From SAR92 clade bacterium H455 (GTDB lineage: Bacteria > Pseudomonadota > Gammaproteobacteria > Pseudomonadales > Porticoccaceae), in assembly GCA_024802545.1 (NCBI GenBank), contig CP103416.1, positions 1,364,001 to 1,428,000 on the forward strand: 64,000 bases of DNA, read 5' to 3'. Within the stretch, counting starts at the first letter, position 1; the number at the start of each line of letters is the position of its first letter. This document shows positions 17,624-32,331 of the stretch, piece after piece. The notes under the pieces are model-generated. The model saw nothing but the letters and a program-made list of their open reading frames with translations, was not told where the DNA came from and searched no databases. Position numbers and translations under genes: made by a program.

Positions 17624-17698
17624 GGGCCGTTAGCTCAGCGGTAGAGCAGTTGGCTTTTAACCAATTGGTCGATGGTTCGAATCCATCACGGCCCACCA
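17624..17698 (+). tRNA. tRNA-Lys (anticodon UUU)
   Basis: The cloverleaf folds with acceptor stem GGGCCGT/ACGGCCC, D arm AGCTCAGCGGTAGAGC, anticodon stem TTGG/CCAA around the loop CTTTTAA (anticodon TTT), and T arm with GGTTCGAATCC. The 3' CCA is encoded (17696-17698), with discriminator A. It lies 39 bases after queC and is followed at once by a strong terminator. Confidence 0.97.
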
Positions 17699-17701
17699 AA
17701 C

Positions 17702-17738
17702 AAATAAAAAAGCCACCCAATGGGTGGCTTTTTTATTT
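17702..17738 (+). terminator. terminator of tRNA-Lys (works in both directions)
   Basis: AAATAAAAAAGCCACCC pairs perfectly with GGGTGGCTTTTTTATTT around a 3-base loop, three bases after the CCA end. The 3' arm is repeated at 17894-17910 as the start of the second tail unit. Confidence 0.93.
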
Positions 17739-18046
17739 GTCCGGCGGGTTCGTCTGGAAAGAACCACCGTTCGACAAAATGCGCACGCATTTTGGACGCC
17801 AAAGGCGCCCCGAAGGGGTGGGAAATAGCCCAAGGGCTATCTCCCATCAATCCATCACCCACTCTTCCAGCATCCACACATCTGCCACCCATAGGGTGGC
17901 TTTTTTATTTGTCCGGCGGGTTCGTCTGGAAAGAACCACCGTTCGACAAAATGCGAATGCATTGCCGACCCCGCAAGCGCCCAGAAGGGGTAAACAACAG
18001 CCAGAAAGTTATCTCCCATTCCCTCGCACTTAGCCGCTTTCTCTTA
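17722..18046 (+). repeat. two diverged ~172-bp tail units after tRNA-Lys
   Basis: Unit 1 runs 17722-17893 and unit 2 from 17894 to about 18046. The first 62 bases are identical (17722-17783 and 17894-17955) and hold the 3' arm of the terminator plus the GGTTC...GAACC hairpin. The rest of unit 2 is a diverged copy. Unit 1 is a chain of hairpins: AAAATGC/GCATTTT, CGCC-AAA-GGCG, CCCC-GAA-GGGG and ATAGCCC-AA-GGGCTAT. A second terminator-like hairpin, GCCACCC-ATA-GGGTGGC plus T-run, closes unit 1 (17884-17910). The short open frames across this region start inside or beside the tRNA and are not credible genes. Confidence 0.85.
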
Positions 18047-30425: not shown

Positions 30426-31415
30426 TTAAGGCGCAGATTGTCGATAAAACCAGCCCCGTTTATTTGTCGGCAGCCAGTCCAATAATCGCGATAGAGCTAA
30501 AATTGCCAGCAGACTAAAAAGCAGTCGAGCGAAGACAATGGTGCTGAAATCGGCGCCCAATAACATCATCAATAACGTATCTTCGATGAGGCTATGACAG
30601 AGGCCTAAAAAGGCCATCGACAAAAAGATATCCCTGCCAGCTATGTGCCCTCGGCGTGCCTCACTGATTAGCAGGCCACCACCAAATGAAAGTCCCAGAG
30701 TGAGTCCAACGATAATAATATTGCTCGCCACCTTGGCTATGCCTAGCAATCGCAACACCGGGGCCAATAAAAAGTGAATCAGGCGCTCGACGCCGAGCAC
30801 TCGCAGAATACGCAAAAATAAGGTTAGTGCGGCAATAACGACGAAGGCCACAGCGATGGTTTGCCCCTGGGTTAAGAGCCAGGCTACCCAGGAGGTGTCG
30901 GCAGTTTCTGGCTGCCATAATTGTGGTGCAGGTAATTGCAGCAGTGCCAGGTTACTGTGCGCTTGATAGGTGATAAAGCCAAATAAAAATGCTCCGCCAA
31001 TACGCAGAAATAGGGTAAACCAAAGACTTATACCAATTGCTCTAGCTATGGCTACTTCTACTGGCAGAGAGTGGGCGATAAGCATCATCGAACTGATCAC
31101 ACTGACCTGAGCTATGCTGAGCTGCTCTGCTAGGCCTAGCTGATAAAACACTACCATGGCGGTATAGATATTGCCCATCATGGCGGCCATCCATACCAGT
31201 CCAGTTTCACCTGGCAGGCCGACTAATAGCATCAGTGGCTGGATCATTGTGCCCAGTGCTTCAACCCAGCCGAGCAGTTCGATACAGCGCACGACTAATA
31301 GGGCAGGGATCATGATTTTCATCAGGCTGGAGAAAATCATCCAAACTTCGGTTAGCCAGTCTTGGGTGGAGTTTTTAAGGGCCGATCGCCATTTACTGTT
31401 GAGCCGGTTACTCAT
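30426..31415 (-). CDS. nucleoside-recognition (GATE) domain membrane protein
   Basis: The 329-residue integral membrane protein has about eight helices and two GATE-type halves (about 40-150 and 215-320). Repeated motifs include MGNIYTAMVVFYQLG and GLCHSLIEDTLLMMLLGAD. The GATE fold occurs in nucleoside transporters, FeoB and spore-maturation proteins; the substrate is unknown. The minus-strand gene stands alone after the tandem-repeat locus. Confidence 0.85.
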   Translation of the reverse strand: MSNRLNSKWRSALKNSTQDWLTEVWMIFSSLMKIMIPALLVVRCIELLGWVEALGTMIQPLMLLVGLPGETGLVWMAAMMGNIYTAMVVFYQLGLAEQLSIAQVSVISSMMLIAHSLPVEVAIARAIGISLWFTLFLRIGGAFLFGFITYQAHSNLALLQLPAPQLWQPETADTSWVAWLLTQGQTIAVAFVVIAALTLFLRILRVLGVERLIHFLLAPVLRLLGIAKVASNIIIVGLTLGLSFGGGLLISEARRGHIAGRDIFLSMAFLGLCHSLIEDTLLMMLLGADFSTIVFARLLFSLLAILALSRLLDWLPTNKRGWFYRQSAP

Positions 31416-31539
31416 TATGTTGTTCTCGAATATTATTTTATTATTGACACAGGCTTTTGAGTCTTTTGCCTAATGTGAGAAAAGGCTAATAGCTGGCGAG
31501 ATCGCATTGTATCTTATAGTCTGTGGCGGCGGATTAATT

Positions 31540-32199
31540 GCGGGATGATTCGGCCTCTGGCCTCACCCCTTCGGGGCCGCCCTAAAGTGCGTTCTGCGTC
31601 GCTTTGCTCCTTGTGAACCGGAGCGTTAAACTCAACCCCGCAAGGATCCGGCAAATAAAAAACCCCCGCACTTGCGTGAGTAGCATTGAATGCGTTTTGG
31701 CAGTGCTTCACCGCGGGATGATTCGGCCTCTGGCCTCACCCCTTCGGGGCCGCCCTAAAGTGCGTTCTGCGTCGCTTTGCTCCTTGTGAACCGGAGCGTT
31801 AAACTCAACCCCGCAAGGATCCGGCAAATAAAAAACCCCCGCACTGGCGTGAGTAGCATTGAATGCGTTTTGGCAGTGCTTCACCGCGGGATGATTCGGC
31901 CTCTGGCCTCACCCCTTCGGGGCCGCCCTAAAGTGCGTTCTGCGTCGCTTTGCTCCTTGTGAACCGGAGCGTTAAACTCAACCCCGCAAGGATCCGGCAA
32001 ATAAAAACCCCCCGCACTGGCGTGAGTAGCATTGAATGCGTTTTGGCAGTGCTTCACCGCGGGATGATTCGGCCTCTGGCCTCACCCCTTCGGGGCCGCC
32101 CTAAAGTGCGTTCTGCGTCGCTTTGCTCCTTGTGAACCGGAGCGTTAAACTCAACCCCGCAAGGATCCGGCAAATAAAAAACCCCCGCACTTGCGTGCG
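31540..32199 (-). repeat. 173-bp tandem repeat array (~3.8 copies) attached to tRNA-Ala
   Basis: Units begin at 31540, 31713, 31886 and 32059 on the plus strand, exactly 173 bases apart. They are almost identical; the visible differences are CTTGCG/CTGGCG and one A-to-C shift in the A/C tract of the third. In the sense of the tRNA, each unit starts with the 3' arm of the tRNA terminator (GTGCGGGGGTTTTTTATTTG), then CCGGATCC. Hairpins follow: CTCC/GGAG, CCCC-GAA-GGGG, GGCC-AGA-GGCC and GCATT-C-AATGC. The 61-codon frames that recur every 173 bases on the opposite strand are products of the repeat. The farthest copy has no neighbouring gene for over 120 bases. Confidence 0.95.
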
Positions 32200-32212
32200 A
32201 GGGTTTTTTATT
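32171..32212 (-). terminator. terminator of tRNA-Ala
   Basis: Directly after the tRNA 3' end, AAATAAAAAACCCTCGCAC pairs with GTGCGGGGGTTTTTTATTT around GCAA (one mismatch-type pair). The 3' arm is also the first part of each 173-bp unit. Confidence 0.92.
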
Positions 32213-32288
32213 TGGTGGAGCCTAGCGGGATCGAACCGCTGACCTCAACACTGCCAGTGTTGCGCTCTCCCAGCTGAGCTAAGGCCCC
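32213..32288 (-). tRNA. tRNA-Ala (anticodon GGC)
   Basis: The 76-base cloverleaf has acceptor arms GGGGCCT and AGGCTCC with the G3-U70 pair that marks alanine tRNA, and an encoded ACCA end. The D arm is AGCTCAGCTGGGAGAGC, the anticodon stem CAACA/TGTTG surrounds CTGGCAG (anticodon GGC), and the T arm carries GGTTCGATCCC. It lies downstream of gltX on the same strand but has its own promoter. Confidence 0.97.
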
Positions 32289-32302: not shown

Positions 32303-32331
32303 ATAATAGGGATGACCTTGGGCCAAGTCAA
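32303..32331 (-). promoter_or_regulatory. promoter of tRNA-Ala
   Basis: On the minus strand TTGACT (32331-32326) and TATTAT (32308-32303) are spaced by exactly 17 bases and end 14 bases before the tRNA. It is the best sigma-70 match found in the window. It lies in the 69 bases between gltX and the tRNA. Confidence 0.85.

Follow-up and report, generated by a model that had tools for sequence, protein, structure and literature searches.

A tandem repeat behind tRNA-Ala(GGC) in SAR92 clade bacterium H455 that looks like a worn-tail relative of the tRNA-linked repeats of Escherichia coli

tRNA-linked repeats (TLRs) are a known class of elements in E. coli, largely without known function (PMC8144298). 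They were first described in 1978, and a paper of 2021 states that they had 'no known function' before its own work on copies linked to 5S rRNA; older studies cited there are Egan and Landy 1978, Bosl and Kersten 1991 and 1994, and Rudd 1999 (PMC8144298). By definition, the last 18-19 bp of a TLR unit repeat exactly the 3' end of the tRNA or rRNA before it; TLRs occur as one to five units per locus, directly downstream of the tRNA or rRNA gene and on the same strand (PMC8144298). RrA, RrB and RrF, which follow 5S rRNA, arise when transcription runs past a first terminator, and they are transcribed and processed with the operon; they bind CsrA, whereas the other 19 E. coli TLRs are predicted not to (PMC8144298). 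Homologues of RtT in Actinobacillus pleuropneumoniae adjoin tRNA genes and give Northern signals (PMC4986893), and some rtT-like elements have been linked with BIMEs (PMC2965389).

In the window (the whole 64-kb stretch of H455 DNA analysed here), we identified a tandem array at 31540-32197 with a period of 173, 3.8 copies and 99% matches (TRF score 1295). All other arrays listed by TRF in the window have periods of 54 or less. An earlier note on this DNA had reported a 173-bp unit in about 3.8 near-identical copies behind tRNA-Ala(GGC), with which TRF agrees. Its start at 31540 stands, but the end given at 32288 takes in the tRNA. The tRNA ends at 32213 and the array begins at 32197, directly downstream and on the same strand, and the array copies differ from one another at a few positions. 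The distance to the next gene, put at about 125 bases, is 124 bases from the array to the start codon of a minus-strand ORF (30426-31415). The consensus promoter claimed upstream of the tRNA was recovered as a sigma-70-like element (Table 1). The two-armed terminator is, as claimed, unique to the copy next to the tRNA, where folding gives a 20-pair hairpin; the other copies have the 3' arm and T-run. A terminator scan gives no minus-strand site because the T-run sits inside the stem.

Table 1. Features of the window and repeats in other tRNA tails of the H455 genome
Feature	Position in window	Strand	Unit	Basis
Sigma-70-like promoter of tRNA-Ala (TTGACT, 17 nt, TATTAT)	32303..32331	-		consensus scan, 10/12
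tRNA-Ala(GGC), CCA encoded	32213..32288	-		ARAGORN; Rfam tRNA 61.8 bits
Terminator hairpin, 20 pairs, GCAA loop, T-run within 3' arm; sole two-armed copy	32171..32214	-		sequence, fold
Anti-tail next to tRNA, can lengthen terminator hairpin	32150..32171	-		duplex energy
Further anti-tail copies (four in all)	31977-31998, 31804-31825, 31631-31652	-		sequence
Repeat copy 1, closest to tRNA	32059..32197	-	139 nt	TRF, BLAST; RtT match 32048-32176, 23.5 bits
Worn tRNA-tail copy ATCCCGC in copy 1; same 7 nt in other copies	32059..32065	-	7 nt	sequence
Repeat copy 2	31886..32058	-	173 nt	TRF, BLAST; RtT match 31875-32003, 23.5 bits
Repeat copy 3	31713..31885	-	173 nt	TRF, BLAST; RtT match 31702-31830, 23.5 bits
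Repeat copy 4, most distant from tRNA	31540..31712	-	173 nt	TRF, BLAST; RtT match 31529-31657, 27.1 bits
tRNA-Lys(TTT), the window's other tRNA	17624..17698	+		ARAGORN
TLR-like unit 1 behind tRNA-Lys	17737..17857	+		model R1, 83.4 bits
TLR-like unit 2 behind tRNA-Lys	17909..18026	+		model R1, 39.2 bits
Ala(GGC) tail repeat			173 bp x 3.8	inspection/TRF
Pro(GGG) tail repeat			234 bp x 3.2	
Phe(GAA) tail repeat			160 bp, six units	
Leu(CAA) tail repeat			197 bp	
Ser(GCT) tail repeat			163 bp	
Ser(GGA) tail repeat or tail copy, behind tRNA				
Lys(TTT) tail repeat, in same window			172 bp	
Met(CAT) tail repeat, simpler type			104 bp	
Leu(CAG) tail repeat or tail copy, behind tRNA				
Arg(TCG) tail				added by model hits

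Each unit is ordered as terminator 3' arm and T-run, a segment that we call the anti-tail, GGTTC, a chain of small hairpins and the T-stem remnant ATCCCGC. The earlier description of the unit as a terminator 3' arm followed by small hairpins holds for these parts; as a whole, the 173-nt unit folds no better than shuffled sequence (z -1.0; 36 of 200 shuffles equally good). The anti-tail is complementary, G-U pairs included, to the 3' half of tRNA-Ala, with a duplex energy of -27.0 kcal/mol against -16.7 kcal/mol for pairing with the unit's own tail remnant. When folded, the end of tRNA-Ala, the terminator and the anti-tail form one long hairpin. In the minimum-energy fold of the tRNA with the first unit, anti-tail pairing replaces the 3' pairings of the tRNA itself. 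This is a weak verdict on the winning structure, since the program fails to give the cloverleaf even when it folds only the tRNA. The sequence suggests that RNA running past the tRNA-Ala terminator could pair with the tRNA's own end.

The array units contain no copy of the tRNA-Ala tail at word length 11. They fall outside the strict TLR definition because their tail copy is worn to seven nucleotides, although they lie directly behind a tRNA on the same strand and number 3.8, within the TLR range. At the Rfam gathering cut-off, nothing beyond the two tRNAs was found in the 64-kb window. The RtT model (RF00391) gives five hits at E <= 1 in the whole genome, of which the best four are the array copies at full length, with scores (E 0.005 and 0.04) under the 45-bit cut-off. 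Matches to eukaryotic miRNA families stayed below threshold and coincide with the long terminator hairpin; we disregarded them. Among 17 tRNAs examined in E. coli K-12, the tails of Tyr, Lys and Arg are copied with the same junction, and alaX, glyY, leuV, metV, proM and proL have no 12-nt tail copy within 620 nt. The likeness to E. coli tyrT/rtT, drawn earlier as a comparison, goes deeper than analogy: the array comprises the best RtT matches of the genome, and the junction is shared with K-12 tails.

In relatives of the same genus, the Ala locus has four copies in G018, two each in G017 and G019, one in G013, one (at a contig end) in G002, one decayed copy in G011 and none in G033. Separate assemblies of relatives have diverged tandem copies here, two or four in number. 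The worn tail is common to the Ala units of six same-genus relatives, reading ATCTCGC in one. One further comparison, of 12 distinct Ala units, left out that of G011. A CTGCC motif that follows the worn tail (window 31540-31712) recurs in the Ala units of several relatives, where its surroundings vary. The proposal that the array was recently amplified or homogenised fits its 99% identity together with the differing copy number in same-genus relatives.

BLAST of the 173-nt unit against the 2.96-Mb, one-contig genome gave 10 matches: the four array copies, the tRNA-Ala terminator, and five in the tails of tRNA-Pro, tRNA-Arg and a displaced tmRNA tail. ARAGORN found 35 tRNA genes and the tmRNA in fetched stretches of the genome. 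We inspected the 1000 bp downstream of every one of them and found related tails for about 12 of the 36 (Table 1), counting two, those of tmRNA and Arg(ACG), that look displaced. Direct repeats behind tRNA-Leu(GAG) and tRNA-Cys seemed to lie in or beside coding sequence, and were not counted. Tail copies of at least 18 nt, the strict length, are present for tmRNA and Ser(GGA), and near-strict copies for Phe (17 nt) and Pro (16 nt, without the CCA end). At E <= 1, model R1 does not list the Ala array of the window; it does list Ala units of the relative G018 (L051), at up to 30.6 bits.

Behind tRNA-Phe in this genome, six near-identical 160-bp units each carry a 17-nt copy of the tRNA-Phe tail, with the core inverted (L031 1501-2560). 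Four copies of the tmRNA 3' end occur in TLR-like units 27 kb from tmRNA (L013 1300-1900), and the gene next to tmRNA on its downstream side encodes a phage-type integrase (L277 502-1916); in the relative G019, two units directly follow tmRNA. In H455, tmRNA and its tail units are apart as if an island had moved in between. A partial Arg(ACG)-like 3' end, together with a terminator and a TLR core, is found some 7 kb away from its tRNA gene (L279 965-1215), as if displaced by another island.

Read in the tRNA sense, a complete unit of the family consists of the anti-tail, often GAACC-loop-GGTTC, about four small hairpins and a tRNA tail copy, often with the terminator again. Where present, the tail copy starts at the T-loop (about position 58 in tRNA numbering) and runs towards CCA. 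At 46 tRNA loci with a core hairpin within 120 nt, the region behind the hairpin has a mean score of 12.0 against its own tail versus 6.5 against the tails of other tRNAs. The own-tail match beats more than 95% of other tails at 30 of these loci, and a few of the 46 (e.g., L146, L154, L168, L170) have no tail copy.

Searching 370 genomes of the class for the pattern GTTCRACAAAA..TTTTGGACGCC gave 14 exact matches, in 7 genomes, and none for the reversed control. The pattern was found in 113 stretches of named genomes, 80 of which were examined. These hold 100 matches: 61 lie within 800 nt downstream of a tRNA on the same strand and 3 lie near a tRNA in another arrangement, while the remainder include several with a tRNA-like tail uncalled by ARAGORN and a few that are chance-like. 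At E <= 0.01, a covariance model built on 26 units has matches in 130 of the 370 class genomes, which represent 111 of 273 genera. A second draw, from the whole phylum with the class included, gave matches in 50 of 199 genomes. Both draws were strictly filtered, and no more than 9 or 18 candidates were scored for any genome. In the first draw, a tRNA end lies no more than 900 nt upstream in 25 of the best 30 loci. Of 18 further matches fetched from the second draw, 8 directly follow a tRNA or tmRNA and others do not; thus, the model also picks up hairpin chains outside tRNA tails. The chain in genome G431 belongs to a dispersed element, perhaps an insertion sequence, and at least three of the four fetched copies share more than 900 bp upstream of the chain (L259-L262).

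Relative to the exact complement of the tRNA tail, anti-tail changes that keep G-U pairing (C to T at 40/226 positions, A to G at 11/199) outnumber those that break pairing (G to A at 7/339, T to C at 4/118) in 45 of 59 alignments that passed filtering by length and identity. When each of 19 tRNA types is represented by a single locus, the counts are 17/107 and 6/85 against 1/146 and 0/57. The loci are related, and locus counts are not independent events. Same-strand tail copies show no excess of C to T (1/265; G to A 3/104). The anti-tail changes, being mostly G-U-compatible, point to RNA. At 38 loci with a clear tail copy, the mean energy of the duplex between anti-tail and own tail is -14.2 kcal/mol, versus -11.9 kcal/mol when permuted; none of 5000 permutations is as low, and 10 of the 38 loci are individually below the 5% level. 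The pairing energy has no general strand asymmetry at these loci (sense stronger in 20, weaker in 18; p 0.19). Counting exact complementarity alone, the anti-tail matches its own tail better than other tails at the 5% level in just 8 of 45 loci (L105, where the tail is too close, was skipped from the 46). This weakened the idea that the anti-tail is an exact antisense copy, and we replaced it by G-U pairing.

In the first hairpin of the core, three of eight stem pairs vary, with compensated changes and almost without G-U, and the other five are partly fixed by the search pattern. The near absence of G-U suits DNA palindromes as well. GTTCRACAAAA and TTTTGGACGCC are invariant in alignment A1 (26 of 38 units) because the pattern fixes them. 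First hairpins behind different tRNAs of one genome have a mean likeness of 0.91 (15 pairs, some with a locus whose tRNA is not named and which may have broken off the same array; about 0.94 when restricted to the 6 pairs of two named, different tRNAs), versus 0.58 for the same isoacceptor in different genomes (65 pairs). Something homogenises or moves the core. The core behind tRNA-Phe aligns with the Lys core at a score of 37 inverted and 20 forward (shuffled maximum 25), and its tail has six minus-strand model hits of 24-25 bits; against the Ser core the scores are 22 inverted and 19 forward (shuffled maximum 22), and inversion is not clear. In L151 (~2750), the T-loop of a tRNA-Ser(GCT) that otherwise looks complete holds the hairpin core, and an intact copy lies beside this tRNA. 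Between csrA and tRNA-Ser(GCT) there is a 5' fragment of tRNA-Ser whose D-loop is interrupted by the same core (L280, reverse strand, 513-740). A core that is inverted behind tRNA-Phe and present inside tRNA loops behaves partly like a DNA cassette.

CsrA recognises GGA in hairpin loops, the consensus of CsrB/CsrC-type RNAs. In a set of 71 units (three chance-like loci included, and the first hairpin misassigned in several long-loop units), GGA occurs in the loop of the first hairpin in 25 and of the last in 20, and in 3 of 92 middle hairpins. In a set of 70 units, from which L108, L114, L144 and L150 were dropped and for which slightly different definitions shift the margins, GGA is in both loops in 20 units, in the first only in 12, in the last only in 6 and in neither in 32. 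This co-occurrence is above expectation, and the median spacing from first to last loop GGA is 54 nt. Many GGA units come from one genus, Microbulbifer. AnGGA is present in the last hairpin of 24 of the best-ranked 30 loci, as ranked by a model trained partly on such sequences. We identified csrA in 29 of 33 genomes checked. GGA loops are present in three (G161, G099, G501) of the four genomes with no csrA match, which argues against CsrA as the only target unless csrA is absent from those draft assemblies. In H455, tRNA-Ser(GCT) and the TLR array behind it have csrA upstream, and the Pro(GGG) units carry GGA in two loops. The Ala unit of the window has two GGA, neither in a predicted hairpin loop, and so lacks the CsrB/CsrC-type arrangement. 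A role as CsrA sponge is suggested for related tails elsewhere and not for the window array, whose loops are without the motif.

We give about an even chance to the reading that the array is a TLR-type tail with an eroded tRNA-tail copy, made tandem by recombination, whose read-through transcripts would undergo anti-tail pairing and release a small RNA. Its position, tandem copies, RtT matches and the kindred anatomy here and in E. coli count in its favour, as do the own-tail matches, the better-than-permuted pairing and G-U bias of the anti-tails, the long hairpin of the window and the precedent of read-through in RrA, RrB and RrF. Such a tail would lose most of its tRNA-tail copy and expand by recombination between copies. 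In transcripts that pass the tRNA-Ala terminator, the anti-tail would pair with the 3' half of the tRNA and continue the terminator stem. These transcripts would probably fold and be cut unlike normally terminated pre-tRNA, and the tail may be released as a small structured RNA. Where the tail copy of a unit is intact, it could take the tRNA's place as partner of the anti-tail, which is the pairing of the RtT model. Recombination between identical units may set the copy number, which would scale the amount of tail RNA. A bolder version is speculative and rather unlikely: TLR tails would be read-through RNAs, forming one family across the class, and would tie the transcription of stable RNA to other controls, the anti-tail switching between the tRNA and a tail copy interrupted at the T-loop, with paired loop GGA about 54 nt apart serving one CsrA dimer in many lineages, and tandem arrays titrating CsrA in proportion to tRNA synthesis. 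The window array would then be a branch that keeps the switch and is without CsrA sites.

Alternatively, the core may be a small palindromic DNA cassette, REP-like or site-specific, that enters tRNA loops and fragments, with arrays as recombination by-products and RNA incidental. The cores in the tRNA-Ser T-loop and the D-loop fragment, the inversion behind tRNA-Phe, the likeness of first hairpins within a genome, the hairpin chains without a tRNA in some genomes, and an integrase gene next to a tmRNA whose tail units are 27 kb off all speak for it. We nevertheless regard it as unlikely, with some real chance, given the strand-specific G-U signature of the anti-tail and the tie of pattern hits to tRNA tails in one orientation (61 of 100 versus 3 otherwise arranged). 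The array could also be a functionless satellite that arose when a tail was duplicated and then multiplied through slippage or unequal crossing-over. The 99% identity of the copies and their varying number, decay or absence in same-genus relatives would be expected of a satellite, and two strains of Salmonella Paratyphi A are one copy apart in a 175-bp rtT repeat (PMC2658671). The compensated hairpin-stem changes across tRNAs and genera, the recurrence of tail copies and anti-tails, and matches in 130 of 370 class genomes make this origin improbable. That the near-identical copies are an assembly artefact of a truly single copy is very improbable, as the separately assembled relatives have two or four diverged copies and those in the window differ at a few positions. 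It is harder still to believe that the repeat codes for a recurring peptide in the manner of the protamine-like tpr of E. coli, which is annotated inside rttR: there is no ORF of at least 80 codons inside the array, and a period of 173 nt, not a multiple of three, shifts the reading frame at each copy.

Matches in about one third of the sampled genomes of the class provide comparative material for the open question of TLR function and lead to definite predictions: the anti-tail should pair, the T-loop junction should be fixed, and CsrA should bind in lineages whose loops carry GGA and not in others. Genomic islands commonly land at tRNA tails, and the structured, fast-changing element that these tails carry can be split from its tRNA by an island. 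Judging from the open-access literature, TLRs are known in E. coli, and the T-loop start of the tail copy, the G-U signature of the anti-tail and the class-wide spread are apparently new; we found no prior report of these three there, and subscription papers on TLRs might hold them.

REP and BIME elements resemble the array in being chains of small palindromes. They are dispersed between protein genes, in contrast to the Ala unit, all 10 of whose genome matches are in tRNA or tmRNA tails. The A. pleuropneumoniae homologues of RtT differ in lying, or starting, upstream of tRNA genes, and the parts of the text covered describe no tandem array (PMC4986893). RrA, RrB and RrF likewise lie behind the first terminator of a stable-RNA operon; the window array differs in that it follows a tRNA, has no GGA in predicted loops and lacks a full terminator in its farther copies. 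The E. coli TLRs that include rtT/RttR behind tyrV share with the array a tandem arrangement behind a tRNA on the same strand, a similar unit length (178 bp at tyrV), the T-loop junction and a hairpin chain with CCCGAAGGG, and an anti-tail is seen in tyrV and lysQ. Unlike the array, they have a tail of 18-19 nt rather than 7 nt and different core hairpins, and the RtT score of the array is below cut-off. Position, hairpin chain, T-loop junction and weak full-length RtT matches are thus shared with TLRs. From its sequence, the array looks like an eroded-tail relative of the E. coli TLRs, within a widespread and little-studied family for which we infer the function proposed here.
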